Assembly: GCF_038087665.1 (NCBI RefSeq)
Contig: NZ_CP149925.1
Span: 1,489,236-1,553,235 of the forward strand
Direction: 5' to 3'
Source of the DNA: Gallaecimonas sp. GXIMD4217
GTDB taxonomy: Bacteria; Pseudomonadota; Gammaproteobacteria; Enterobacterales; Gallaecimonadaceae
DNA length: 64,000 bases
In this document: one piece after another, positions 13,022 to 56,675 of the stretch
Position numbering within the stretch: the first letter of the stretch is position 1
Layout of the letters: each line of letters begins with the position of its first letter
Program-made: the position numbers and the translations under genes
The notes under the pieces: generated by a model
Told to the model about the DNA's origin: nothing
The model's database searches: none
Seen by the model: only the letters and a program-made list of their open reading frames with translations

Positions 13022-16678
<3,657 letters not shown>

Positions 16679-51149: not shown

Positions 51150-51180
51150 GTCGTCATAACCTCGTTAAGGAGCCTATTTG

Positions 51181-52059
51181 ATGAAAAGGGTCTTACTCTT
51201 TATTGCAACCAACCTGGCCGTGGTGCTGGTGATGTCCGTGGTGCTCAGCATCCTGTTCTCGGTGTTCGGGATCCAGGGCCACTCCGTCACCGGTTACCTG
51301 ATCATTGCCGCCCTGTTCGGTTTTGGCGGCAGCCTGTTCTCGCTGATGATCTCCAAGTGGGTCGCCAAGCGTTCCGTGGGCGCCTACGTCATCGAGCGTC
51401 CCCGTGACGCCATGGAGCAGTGGCTGGTGGACACCGTGGCCCGTCAGGCCCAGCAGGCCGGTATCAAGATGCCGGAAGTGGCCCTGTACGACAGCCCGGA
51501 AATGAATGCCTTTGCCACGGGTCCCAGCAGAAACAACTCCCTGGTGGCCGTTTCCACCGGCCTGCTGTACAAGATGGACCGCGACGAAGTGGAAGCCGTG
51601 CTGGGCCACGAGGTCAGCCATATCGCCAACGGTGACATGGTGACCATGACCCTGTTGCAGGGCGTGCTCAACACCTTCGTGATCTTCTTTGCCCGCATGG
51701 TGGCCATGGCCGTGGACAACTTCCTGCGCGGTGACGACGAGGAAGGCGAGGGCCTGGGCTTCTTTGCCTATATGGGCGTGACCATCGTCATGGAGATGCT
51801 GTTCGGGATCCTGGCCTCCATCATCGTGATGTGGTTCTCCCGCCAGCGTGAATACCGGGCCGATGCCGGCGGTGCGCACCTGGCCAGCCGCAACAAGATG
51901 ATCGCCGCCCTGGAGCGCCTCAAGCAGGGCCATGAGAGCTCCCAGCTGGAAGGCTCCCTGGCCGCCTTCGGTATCCAGGGCAAGCGTTCCCTGGCCGAGT
52001 TCTTCCTCAGCCACCCGCCCCTGGACAAGCGCATCGCCGCCCTGAAGGTGGGTGCCTGA
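51181..52059 (+). CDS. htpX: Membrane protease HtpX
   Basis: 292 residues from the ATG at 51181 with AAGGAG 8 bases upstream. Two N-terminal membrane helices (about 4-25 and 35-58) precede the M48 domain with the zinc motif HEVSH in [20 protein letters not shown]. Two further helices (about 160-180 and 195-215) are followed by the third ligand Glu in [22 protein letters not shown]. It degrades damaged inner-membrane proteins alongside FtsH. A terminator follows. Confidence 0.97.
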
Positions 52060-52786: not shown

Positions 52787-52970
52787 TGCCACATATTGAT
52801 GCCCGGTCCTAACAACGGCATTTTGCGCGCTGCTTGAGGAGCCGGGCCCTGCTTTGAGTCCCTTTACCCTGCCCGTGATTTGCGGCCCTTCCATCGAACA
52901 GCAACTTTCGATAAGAGAAAATATCGTAAGTAATCTCAGAGGTTAACGCGGTCGATATTTGCGCATTAAG

Positions 52971-52992
52971 TGTAAATAACGTAATATTTACA
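52971..52992. promoter_or_regulatory. Operator candidate of the KfrA-like gene
   Basis: A perfect inverted repeat, TGTAAATA-N6-TATTTACA, lies 26 bases upstream of the start codon at 53019 in the AT-rich end of the 273-base gap. A weaker CGATA ... TATCG pair lies further upstream near 52909-52926. Plasmid KfrA proteins bind inverted repeats at their own promoter, so autoregulation is likely. Nothing else is evident in 52787-53018. Confidence 0.6.
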
Positions 52993-53018
52993 TCATTACA
53001 TAAAAGGAGGTTGCCGCC

Positions 53019-54032
53019 ATGCCCCTGAATCCCCAAGGACACCAGCTCAGAGCCAACAAAGACAACGTATGGAAGGCCGCCCAGGCCCTGACGGAAATGG
53101 GCGAGAATCCCTCGGTCAACAATGTCCGCACCTGGCTTGGCGGTGGCTCCAACACCTCCATCAGCCGTTATCTCCAGGAGTGGCATGCCTCTTCTTTGGA
53201 GGAAAAAAATGTAAGGCTGGCGACACCATTACACCTCCAGCAGTCCCTGGATGCGCTGTTCCAACAGATGGAGCAGGAGAAATCGGTGCAGATCCAGCAG
53301 GCCGAGGCGGCCTTTGCCGACCAAGTGCAGGAACTCAAGGAGCAGCTGCAGGCCCTGCAGACGGCACTGGAGGGCCAGCAGGCCGAGAACGCCGAGCTGC
53401 AGAGCCTTTGCCACGAGCAGCAGCAGCGACTTGCGCAAGGGGCGCAACAGGCCGAACGGCAGCAACAGGAGCTGCTGGCCCGTGACAAGGCCCTGACTGA
53501 ACTCGGTGCCAGGCTCGAGGTAACCGAACAACAGCTGCAGGCCAAGGATGCCCAGCTCGGCCACCTGTTCCATCAACAGCAGCACTTCCAGGAAAAGCTC
53601 CAGGCCGCCCAGAAAGAAAGCCTGCAGGCATTGGAGGACAAGCTGTGGCAGGCCAACCACGCCATCGCCCAACTGACCCGGGAACGGGACAAGGCCCTGG
53701 AGGAGAACCGCAACCTCCAGGGGGTGGTGGCCGATGCCCGGGCCCTGGAAGGACAACTGCAACAGGCCAGGGCCCAGTGTGAAGAGCTGCAGCAGCAATG
53801 CCAGTATCACCAGGGCCAGGCCGAGGCCGGCCAGGGCCAGCTGGCCAGGCTGGAGGAGGCGCTACATGACAGCGTCGCCCTGGACGAGCTGAAGGCGGAG
53901 CTGCACGGCCAGCGGCAGAGCCTGGCCACGGTCGAGGCCCAGCTGGCCATGCTGGTGGAACAGGTGAAGAAACGCCAGCAGCTCAAGGCCGAGCTGGAAG
54001 CGCTGCAGGCCAGCCTGGCGGATAAGCCATGA
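53019..54032 (+). CDS. KfrA-like DNA-binding protein with long coiled coil
   Basis: 337 residues. The KfrA N-terminal DNA-binding domain (about 8-120) starts with VWKAAQALTEMGENPSVNNVRTWLGGGSNTSISRYLQEW, a helix-turn-helix of the plasmid-replication-region family. Residues 70-335 are an almost unbroken heptad-rich coiled coil full of Gln, Glu, Leu and Ala. AAAGGAGG is well placed before the ATG. The stop overlaps the recombinase start (ATGA). KfrA is known on plasmids as an autorepressor and segregation-associated filament protein. Here the gene is chromosomal, between htpX-side genes and radD, with no other plasmid genes. Confidence 0.92.
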   Translation: MPLNPQGHQLRANKDNVWKAAQALTEMGENPSVNNVRTWLGGGSNTSISRYLQEWHASSLEEKNVRLATPLHLQQSLDALFQQMEQEKSVQIQQAEAAFADQVQELKEQLQALQTALEGQQAENAELQSLCHEQQQRLAQGAQQAERQQQELLARDKALTELGARLEVTEQQLQAKDAQLGHLFHQQQHFQEKLQAAQKESLQALEDKLWQANHAIAQLTRERDKALEENRNLQGVVADARALEGQLQQARAQCEELQQQCQYHQGQAEAGQGQLARLEEALHDSVALDELKAELHGQRQSLATVEAQLAMLVEQVKKRQQLKAELEALQASLADKP

Positions 54033-54922
54033 GCCTGCCGGCACTGCCTTCCAACTGGCGCCAGGCGGCTAAGGCCCCGGCCACCCGGGACCAGTACCAG
54101 AAGGTCCTCAAGCAATTCGTGCTGGCGGGCTTTACCCTGCCCAGCAGCCCCGGCCAGCTGCTCCGTTACCTGGAGGAGCAGGGCGCCAGGTTCAGCGCCT
54201 CCACCCTGGAGCAGCGCATCAGCGCCATCGGCCTTTGGCACCGGGAGTCGGGCTTTGCCGATCCGGTGACCGCCGAGGTGAAGTCGGCCCTGCAGGCACT
54301 GCGCCGCCTTAAACGCCACCAACCAAGGCGCAAGGCGGCGGCCCTGAGCCGGAGCGATCTGCAGCGGCTGCTGTCGAGCTGTGACGATGGCTCCCTGAGC
54401 GGCCGGCGCGACGGCCTGCTGCTCAGCCTGGGTCTGGCGGCGGCGCTGCGCCGCAGCGAGCTGGCCGGGCTCGACTGGTCTGACGTGCGGCCCGGTGACA
54501 AGGGCCTGGGCGTGCAGATCCGTCATTCCAAGACCGACCAGCAGGGCCAGGGCCGCACCCTGGTGATCCCGCCCCTGGCTCCGCCCTGGGATCCGGCCCT
54601 GTGGCTGCAGGGCTGGCGTGAGGGCAGCGGCCTGAAGGAGGGGCCGCTGCTGGTAGCCATATCCCGCAACGGCCGCCTGGGCGGCAAGCGCCTGACCGGC
54701 CATGGCATCAACCACATCATCCAGAAGCGGGCCCAGCGCCTGGGCCTGGCAGGGGTCAGCGCCCACAGCCTCAGGCGCGCCTTCGCCACCCTGGCGGTCC
54801 AGGCCGGTGTGGGCCTGACCGAGGTGGCGGCGGTGGGACGCTGGCGCAGCCTGGAGTCCCTCAAGGAATATGTGGACGCCCAGCCGAGGGAGGCCATCGC
54901 CAGGGCGCTGGCGGCGGACTAG
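54029..54922 (+). CDS. Tyrosine recombinase coupled to the KfrA-like gene
   Basis: 297 residues. The core-binding SAM-like domain (about 10-95) is followed by the catalytic domain (105-295). The catalytic set is complete: R141 (ALRRSEL), K168 (HSKTD), H246 and R249 (HSLRRAF), W272 in the usual second-His position, and nucleophile Y281. It should therefore cut and rejoin DNA. It starts within the KfrA stop codon (ATGA), so the two are made together. No attachment-site repeats, excisionase or cargo are visible. XerC/XerD roles are unlikely given the context. Confidence 0.93.
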   Translation: MSLPALPSNWRQAAKAPATRDQYQKVLKQFVLAGFTLPSSPGQLLRYLEEQGARFSASTLEQRISAIGLWHRESGFADPVTAEVKSALQALRRLKRHQPRRKAAALSRSDLQRLLSSCDDGSLSGRRDGLLLSLGLAAALRRSELAGLDWSDVRPGDKGLGVQIRHSKTDQQGQGRTLVIPPLAPPWDPALWLQGWREGSGLKEGPLLVAISRNGRLGGKRLTGHGINHIIQKRAQRLGLAGVSAHSLRRAFATLAVQAGVGLTEVAAVGRWRSLESLKEYVDAQPREAIARALAAD

Positions 54923-54983: not shown

Positions 54984-56675
54984 GTGAAGCTCCGTCCCTA
55001 CCAGCAACAGGCCGTGCGGGCCGTGATCCAGTATTTCAAAAAGGAAAAGGCCCCGGCGGTGCTGGTGCTGCCCACCGGGGCAGGCAAGTCCGTGGTCATC
55101 GCCGAGCTGGCCCGGCTGGCCCGGGGCAGGGTGCTGGTATTGACCCATGTGGCGGAGCTGGTGGAGCAGAATGCCCATAAGTACCGGCATTGGCGGGACG
55201 ACGGCAGCATCTTCTCCGCCGGGCTCAAACAAAAGGACCTGCAGGGCAAGGTGGTGTTCGCCTCCATCCAGTCGGTGGCGCCCAACCTGGATCGGTTCGG
55301 CGACGATTTTTCCCTGGTGATGATCGACGAATGCCACCGTATCGGCGCGGCGGAGGAGTCCCAGTATCGGCAGGTGCTGAAGGCCCTGCCCGGTGCCTTG
55401 GTGCTGGGCCTGACCGCCACCCCTTACCGGCTCGACCAGGGCTGGCTCTATAACTTCCATGCCAGGGGCATGGTCAGGACCACGGCCGAGCGCCTGTTCA
55501 AGCATTGCGTCTTTGAGCTGCCGCTGCGCCAGCTTATCGACGAGGGCTACCTGACCCCGGTCAGGGTGCTGCCGGCCCCGGCCATTCGCTACGACTTTTC
55601 GCTGCTGCCCCCAGGCGCCGGCGAGGCGGCCCTGGACAGGGCCCTGGCCGGCCAGGGCAAGCTGACCCCGGCCATAGTCCAGCACCTGCAGGCGGTGGCC
55701 GAAAGTCGACAGGGGGTGATGATCTTCGCCGCCAGTCGCCGCCACGGCCGGGAGGTAGCCGCCCTGCTGCCGCCCGAACAGACCGGACTGGTGCTGGGCG
55801 ACACCGCCGGCGCCGAGCGGGCCGCCATCATCGATCGCTTCAAGGCCAGGGAGCTCAAGTACCTGGTCAACGTGTCGGTGCTGACCACCGGCTTCGATGC
55901 CTCCCATGTGGATCTCATCGCCATCCTCAGGCCCACCGAGTCCGTGTCGCTTTTCCAGCAGATCGTCGGTCGCGGCCTTAGGCTCAGTGACGGCAAGGAG
56001 GAGTGCCTGGTGCTGGATTATGCCGGCAACGGCTTCGATCTCTTCGCGCCCGAAGTGGGGGAGCCCAGGCCGCCCGGCACCGTGCCGGTGGTGGTGCCCT
56101 GTCCGCTGTGTGGCCACCAGAACCCGTTCTGGGGCAGGGTGGACGGCGACGGCGACATCATCGAGCACTTCGGCCGTCGCTGCCAGGGCATGACGGGACC
56201 GCAAAGCCAGTGCGACTACCGTTACCGCAGCCGGATCTGTGGCGACTGCGGCGCCGAGGCCGACATCGCCGCCCGCCAGTGCCCTCAATGCCAGGCCACT
56301 CTGGTGGATGTGGACAAGAAGCTGCGCGAGGCCATGAAGGGGGCCAAGCTGCACCTGTTCAAGGTAGCGGCCATGACGCTGGCAGACGGCGGCGATGCCC
56401 TGGAGGTGAGCTACTTCGATGAGGCGGCCCAATGCCAGAAGGAGAAGCTGCCCTATGGCGGCACCCGTTTGAAGCGCTTTTTGGCCGAACTCAACAGGGC
56501 ACCCGGGGCCAGGTTCCTGCCCGCCGACAACACCCTGGTGCAACATGAGGGGCTGCTCCGCCGGCCGGACTTTCTGATCCTCAAGCGGCACAAGCGCGGC
56601 TTCTGGCAGGTCGGCGAGCGGATCTGCGACTACGAGGGCCGCTTCCAGAAGGCAGAACACGCGGGCCTGGCCTGA
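54984..56675 (+). CDS. radD: Superfamily 2 DNA helicase RadD (YejH)
   Basis: 563 residues from a GTG at 54984 (E. coli RadD 586). LRPYQQQAV is the Q-motif region, TGAGKS at 31-36 the Walker A and DECH at 115-118 the Walker B. TATPYRL, TTGFDASHVDLIAILRPTESVSLFQQIVGRGLR cover the later motifs. The C-terminal part has a zinc site of CPLCGHQ, CGDCGA and CPQCQ. RadD helps recombinational repair with SSB and RecA in E. coli. It lies 61 bases after the recombinase gene, with no terminator between. Confidence 0.95.
   Translation: MKLRPYQQQAVRAVIQYFKKEKAPAVLVLPTGAGKSVVIAELARLARGRVLVLTHVAELVEQNAHKYRHWRDDGSIFSAGLKQKDLQGKVVFASIQSVAPNLDRFGDDFSLVMIDECHRIGAAEESQYRQVLKALPGALVLGLTATPYRLDQGWLYNFHARGMVRTTAERLFKHCVFELPLRQLIDEGYLTPVRVLPAPAIRYDFSLLPPGAGEAALDRALAGQGKLTPAIVQHLQAVAESRQGVMIFAASRRHGREVAALLPPEQTGLVLGDTAGAERAAIIDRFKARELKYLVNVSVLTTGFDASHVDLIAILRPTESVSLFQQIVGRGLRLSDGKEECLVLDYAGNGFDLFAPEVGEPRPPGTVPVVVPCPLCGHQNPFWGRVDGDGDIIEHFGRRCQGMTGPQSQCDYRYRSRICGDCGAEADIAARQCPQCQATLVDVDKKLREAMKGAKLHLFKVAAMTLADGGDALEVSYFDEAAQCQKEKLPYGGTRLKRFLAELNRAPGARFLPADNTLVQHEGLLRRPDFLILKRHKRGFWQVGERICDYEGRFQKAEHAGLA

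Follow-up and report, generated by a model that had tools for sequence, protein, structure and literature searches.

A kfrA-like/tyrosine recombinase operon upstream of radD in Gallaecimonas, probably a chromosomal relative of the TnpS/TnpT/rst recombination systems

In the 64-kb stretch of DNA analysed here (the window), a KfrA-like coiled-coil protein and a tyrosine recombinase are encoded in tandem ahead of the DNA repair gene radD, with two candidate recognition sites upstream of the pair. The features are the following.

51178-52059, plus strand: left neighbour, presumably htpX; the protein lies near the locus in all five genus genomes.
52901-52934, no strand: putative recombination core site, lox-like in 13-8-13 form, GCAACTTTCGATA agagaaaa TATCGTAAGTAAT; called from an inverted repeat, a motif and a lox match.
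52971-52992, no strand: perfect 22-bp palindrome, TGTAAATA-N6-TATTTACA; presumed KfrA operator and accessory (Acc) site.
53019-54032, plus strand: kfrA-like / TnpT-like gene, 337 aa; PF11740 (KfrA_N), E 2e-22, plus coiled coil.
54029-54922, plus strand: tyrosine recombinase gene, TnpS/Cre-like, 297 aa; PF00589, E 3.2e-15.
54984-56675, plus strand: radD, DNA repair helicase; NF053632, 747.7 bits against a cut-off of 720.

Both genes of the pair are intact, and the second begins within the end of the first at an ATGA overlap (54029-54032). An earlier note on this DNA, made from the sequence alone, had described them as a KfrA-like coiled-coil gene and an intact recombinase, and this is borne out by Pfam and by an alignment of the window recombinase with 10 relatives (n=11), in which R141, K168, H246, R249, W272 and Y281 are invariant. 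The same holds for its placing of radD 61 bases downstream: NF053632 identifies the gene, whose start at 54984 lies 61 bp past the recombinase stop, with no overlap here. Across five species the KfrA-like protein is strongly conserved in its N-terminal part and in a C-terminal KRQQLK..LEA stretch. Against the Xer equivalog models the recombinase reaches 45.4 and 42.7 bits, below the cut-offs of 329.6 (XerD) and 335.15 (XerC). A phage or island integrase would be expected to come with att repeats or cargo and a variable position, and here the neighbours are the same in four of five genomes. The claim that the locus lacks an att repeat stands for its flanks, where about 10 kb on each side hold no repeat above chance, but not for the region upstream of kfrA, where the core site lies at 52901-52934.

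The palindrome is centred at -37 from the kfrA ATG and exceeds shuffle expectation (0 of 100 shuffles of the window hold a match at ≤1 mismatch), so the perfect upstream repeat reported earlier is confirmed at 52971-52992. Its counterpart in the four congeners G001-G004 (the window genome being G000) is TGTAAT-N6-ATTACA at -29. The earlier note had also proposed to look for further copies of the palindrome, and had named a DNA-organising module as one reading; a search of the whole 3.35-Mb genome found this single copy and no other at ≤2 mismatches, and because of this uniqueness a genome-wide organiser is unsupported and was rejected.

The core site is centred at -101, 64 bp above the palindrome centre, with an 18-bp motif at 52909-52926. 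It contains the inverted repeat ACTTTCGATA-AGAGAAAA-TATCGTAAGT, with 9/10 arm letters paired around an 8-bp spacer (equalled by 5 of 1000 dinucleotide shuffles); read as 13-8-13, it shares 17/26 arm letters with lox, the highest lox score anywhere in the 220 bp upstream (0/300 shuffles). The distance from core to palindrome is 64, 65, 66 and 66 bp in G000-G003. At the aligned core place G001 and G003 carry CTAACTTACCAAAA-N6-TTTTAAAAT, and an inverted-repeat scan found no significant repeat in the core of G001-G003. Exact copies of CTAACTTWCCAAAA occur once in G001, once in G003 and twice in G002, there at the ends of a prophage, all at the core place; the exact search found none in G000 or G004, and with one mismatch the sequence occurs at seven scattered places. 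The upstream region of G004 retains the palindrome and lacks the core block.

Close forms of the recombinase were found only within this genus. Among 59 genomes, the window's own included, 23 have a match at E 0.001, and close matches (58-59%) occur only in G000 and its congeners G001-G003, the next being at 35% (E 6e-27). A four-sequence recombinase profile matched 44 of 394 genomes of the order at E 1e-20, G000-G003 all at E <1e-160 and the next best at 3e-45. A single genus (f25/g35) accounts for 20 of the 44, each with a related tyrosine recombinase; L148-L151, the four of its loci that were inspected, hold no KfrA_N gene.

kfrA, the recombinase gene and radD occupy the same place in three of the four congeners, hence in four of five genus genomes with the window. 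The order in G001 and G003 is htpX, glycolipid-binding protein, kfrA, recombinase, radD, and G002 differs by a prophage between the glycolipid-binding protein and kfrA. The recombinase and radD genes overlap in each of these three congeners. G004 keeps kfrA, the palindrome and radD, and the recombinase and the core are both missing; a 26-aa ORF with ATGA overlaps at both ends fills the recombinase place (L068 6766-6846). In the RadD tree G000 lies outside the other four (100/99) and G004 joins G003 (94/90), and because G004 is thus nested in the genus, loss of the recombinase there would be the simplest reading. Among G001-G003, dN is 0.20-0.21 for the recombinase, 0.18-0.19 for radD and 0.27-0.37 for kfrA, and against G000 it is 0.38-0.44, 0.28-0.29 and 0.48-0.52, so that constraint on the recombinase approaches that on RadD among the three congeners and is weaker than that on radD against G000; dN/dS ratios are rough, as dS is near or beyond saturation. 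Within this sample of five species of one genus, the synteny in 4/5 genomes, the constraint among G001-G003 and the radD overlap in three species uphold the earlier view of a fixed chromosomal recombination module rather than a decaying element. The proposed tie to RadD fares less evenly: the arrangement is conserved in the genus, but outside it 26 radD genes were found and the locus obtained for 25, and neither kfrA nor a recombinase of this kind lies within about 1.5 kb in any of the 25.

Wider relationships of the recombinase lead to Cre and to transposon resolution systems. A profile of 11 recombinases searched against solved structures finds Cre best (E 4e-25 to 2e-23), followed by XerC-like (2e-13) and XerD (1e-9) structures. 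With the four genus sequences as profile, Cre scores 46 bits, above three Xer-like proteins (30-35) and below L009 and L010, recombinases of the order (53-56), and the paired family. The window recombinase differs from the Cre/lox system of phage P1 in being 22% identical to Cre, in having a KfrA-type partner gene and in being chromosomal; the structure match and the 13-8-13 fit amount to a partial similarity, and the lox likeness is not specific.

A KfrA_N-like gene accompanies the recombinase at 28 of 56 loci, adjacent and divergent at 25, in tandem at one (L172) and kilobases off at two (L033, L176); five KfrA_N-like genes and seven recombinases of this set also served to build the profiles. 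According to Pfam, a Tn3 transposase adjoins the recombinase in L143 and L152. L153-L155 are near copies of L152, with a similar large ORF in L153 and L154 and none in L155. The earlier note had held that finding the pair only on recent islands or plasmids of variable position would speak against it; the genus itself contradicts such a picture, which does suit some of these outside relatives with a Tn3 transposase.

The plasmid pWW0 carries a divergent recombinase/KfrA_N pair, which, in part from its layout, we take to be TnpT/TnpS of Tn4651. Its TnpT-like protein (L179 29463-30461) is a KfrA_N protein (PF11740, E 2.6e-26). The TnpS of pWW0 is 29% identical to the window recombinase (E 6e-29 in a single comparison), and the pairwise BLAST match between TnpT and the window KfrA-like protein spans just 44 residues. 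TnpT of pWW0 has KfrA_N relatives, although it has been described as being without apparent homologues. In the parts of the sources consulted, TnpS is the recombinase, TnpT its helper, and rst consists of a core and an accessory site between the two genes (PMC7157771, PMC4619425), with the names TnpS and TnpT exchanged in one figure legend of PMC7157771. Resolution of the pWW0 type is the one whose function is known from experiment. In the passages retrieved from the open-licence literature KfrA and TnpT are co-mentioned and not connected, and a search of that literature returned nothing joining TnpS, tyrosine recombinase and chromosome dimer.

Upstream of such pairs a common core motif, CGATAA-N6-TTATCG, can be recognised. 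It was scored in 21 regions, comprising 20 of the 28 loci and pWW0; L033, L041, L140, L153, L154, L162, L172 and L176 were outside this first test. The motif was read from those same regions, and for this reason the scores of the 21 pairs are not independent, while the score of the window is independent of the motif, though its site had been seen first. At least 10/12 letters are present upstream of 14 of the 21 pairs, in 11 of these 14 centred at -101 to -122; of the others, L147 is off register at -128, and L141 and L144 have centres at -37 and -31, probably owing to a start codon set too far upstream. The window scores 11/12 at -101 (reached by 0/500 shuffles), and this is the one match in its 64 kb, where 0.01 would be expected. 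Beyond the first set, L041 scores 11/12 at -104, L172 8/12 and L176 at most 7/12. The pair of L172 (1085-3160), from another genome of the class, is a KfrA_N gene and a recombinase gene in tandem without the core motif. The scores of G001-G004 are at chance (7-8/12; the 7/12 of G001-G003 is equalled by 489-498 of 500 shuffles), and pWW0, with 7/12, is no match; six of the seven misses, pWW0 among them, sit in a pWW0-like subclade of the recombinase tree.

Likeness to lox was rejected as evidence by itself. For 9 of the 21 pairs the core itself gives the best lox match (L031 19/26, L163 18/26), and for 12 that match lies elsewhere, as it also does in G002 and G003; the match of G001 is equalled by 32/300 shuffles, and G004, which has no recombinase, shows 15/26 at the palindrome (6/300 shuffles).

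Since the window shares its core motif with 14 of the 21 tested KfrA_N/recombinase pairs, some pairs lying near Tn3 transposases, and TnpT is itself a KfrA_N protein, the locus is best read as a relative of the TnpS/TnpT/rst systems. We propose, with a probability of about 0.72 judged from the sequences, that it is a chromosomal, transposase-free site-specific recombination module organised as one operon. With TnpS/TnpT/rst of Tn4651 and related Tn3-family transposons the window shares a tyrosine recombinase with intact catalytic residues, a KfrA_N coiled-coil helper, a palindrome near the helper gene and a core inverted repeat farther upstream; in the congeners G001-G003 the position of the core is kept, but not its motif. 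It differs in that its genes are in tandem with an ATGA overlap whereas TnpS and TnpT are divergent with the site between them, in that it occupies a fixed chromosomal place beside radD without transposase or terminal repeats, and in that its recombinase lies on a deep branch of its own. Because the pWW0 region fails the motif, the tie to that system rests on the proteins and the layout. In the free tree the four recombinases of the genus form a long branch outside the TnpS / KfrA-paired clade; when they are constrained to join the KfrA-paired clade, a grouping chosen once the tree was known, the likelihood is higher by 4.8 and the constrained tree stands (p 0.61). A common origin with TnpS is thus likely, not proven.

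By analogy, the KfrA-like protein, as the TnpT counterpart, would bind the palindrome by the promoter, repress its own operon and act as an accessory factor, and the Cre-like recombinase, as the counterpart of TnpS, would bind the two core arms 64 bp upstream of the palindrome and exchange strands within the 8-bp spacer at 52914-52921. Two directly repeated sites on one circle, either in a chromosome dimer or brought together by an element carrying a mimic, could in this way be resolved. The binding, repression and catalysis, and a standing role in dimer resolution, are inferred. Were this true, a transposon-type resolution module would have been retained by a host lineage within a repair operon, and its recombination site would be placed to the base.

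The core site of G002 is occupied by an inovirus prophage of 7344 bp (L066 7259-14622), inserted exactly in the core, with a GC content of 47.1% vs 57%. It is flanked by two copies of CTAACTT[A/T]CCAAAATATCCA (19/20-bp repeats), attL being CTAACTTACCAAAATATCCA and attR CTAACTTTCCAAAATATCCA, of which the left arm and spacer mimic the host and the right arm diverges. Its products include G2P, a G5P-like protein, a pI/Zot-type assembly protein, a minor coat protein and a regulator; the ORF of the HTH regulator (14258-14617) terminates within attL. Among the 10 ORFs of at least 100 aa that were scanned, none matched an integration family and five matched no family at all, and in ORFs of that size the 18-kb G002 locus holds no recombinase relative except the host's own. 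G2P is present in one of the five genus genomes, and the evidence comprises this one phage insertion.

In phage records G2P matched two records of filamentous phage I2-2 and Dulem virus 58, and among viral contigs a single locus, equal in length to I2-2. The recombinase found two distant loci in the viral collections, in which the core pattern and the KfrA profile found no relative; the 19-letter att pattern gave one match there, on a contig with structural ORFs resembling by eye those of tailed phages, which was taken as chance.

CTXphi-type phages integrate at dif by means of XerCD, and their phage site has one host-like and one divergent arm. The inovirus of G002 resembles them in its att arms and in having no recognised integrase, but the site that it used is not dif. 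It might be that the recombinase of the locus is uninvolved and that XerC/XerD inserted the phage at a dif-like site located there by coincidence. Integrase-free inoviruses that use XerCD and dif are described in the parts consulted of PMC5666396 and PMC4246890, and inovirus integration is treated also in PMC6813254; moreover, the G000 core agrees with the dif arms at 13/22 letters (equalled by 48/500 shuffles). Against this, the five other att-site sequences are equalled by 197 to 432 of 500 shuffles, as expected by chance, and G002 has a single canonical dif; the core block, furthermore, is kept in recombinase-bearing species free of the phage and absent from the recombinase-free G004. An XerCD origin of the att site was rejected on the chance-level dif similarity, and since the att repeats are no more dif-like than chance, the recombinase of this locus is favoured; the insertion points to it, a host recombinase other than XerCD, and we regard the XerC/XerD account as quite improbable. 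On the preferred reading, the inovirus would have exploited the core site of the module.

That the locus is what remains of an ancient insertion, by a Tn4651-type transposon or a plasmid, with resolution genes that survive but no longer have a function, would accord with the Tn3 transposases near some relatives outside the genus (L143, L152) and with PF11740, whose family name refers to plasmids. We nevertheless consider it decidedly unlikely: all six catalytic residues are retained, the dN of the recombinase among G001-G003 stays close to that of radD (with dS near or beyond saturation), three species keep the recombinase-radD overlap, and the window has no above-chance flanking repeats and no ORF matching either of the two Tn3 transposases (E 0.1). 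It is likewise unlikely that the KfrA-like protein is the working part, as a transcription or nucleoid factor in a kfrA-radD operon, with the recombinase a dispensable passenger. G004 fits such an arrangement, with kfrA, palindrome and radD kept and the 26-aa ORF in place of the recombinase, but the core is missing just where the recombinase is, constraint on the recombinase among G001-G003 nearly equals that on radD, and the genome holds no second copy of the palindrome at ≤2 mismatches.

A more specific role for the module can be put forward tentatively, namely that of a lox-like system for chromosome resolution additional to dif, cotranscribed with radD and retained near the terminus beside dif, through which filamentous phages lacking integrases would enter as an alternative to dif. 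A search at ≤3 mismatches gives a single canonical dif in every one of the five genomes (none with the reversed control), and kfrA lies 78, 65, 67, 82 and 84 kb from it in G000-G004; a random locus would fall within 84 kb of dif in 3.8 Mb with a chance of about 4%, the five genomes not being independent. In Legionellales, the consulted part of PMC9765430 describes how the integrated element LME-1 exposed the conserved inverted-repeat site of XerL/dif near the terminus. An integrated element likewise reveals a conserved site near the terminus here, but the genus also has a canonical dif, and the site in question immediately precedes the recombinase operon. Relative to the kfrA locus, dif of G000 (at C1:1620038) points the opposite way from dif of the four congeners, which suggests an inversion around the terminus.
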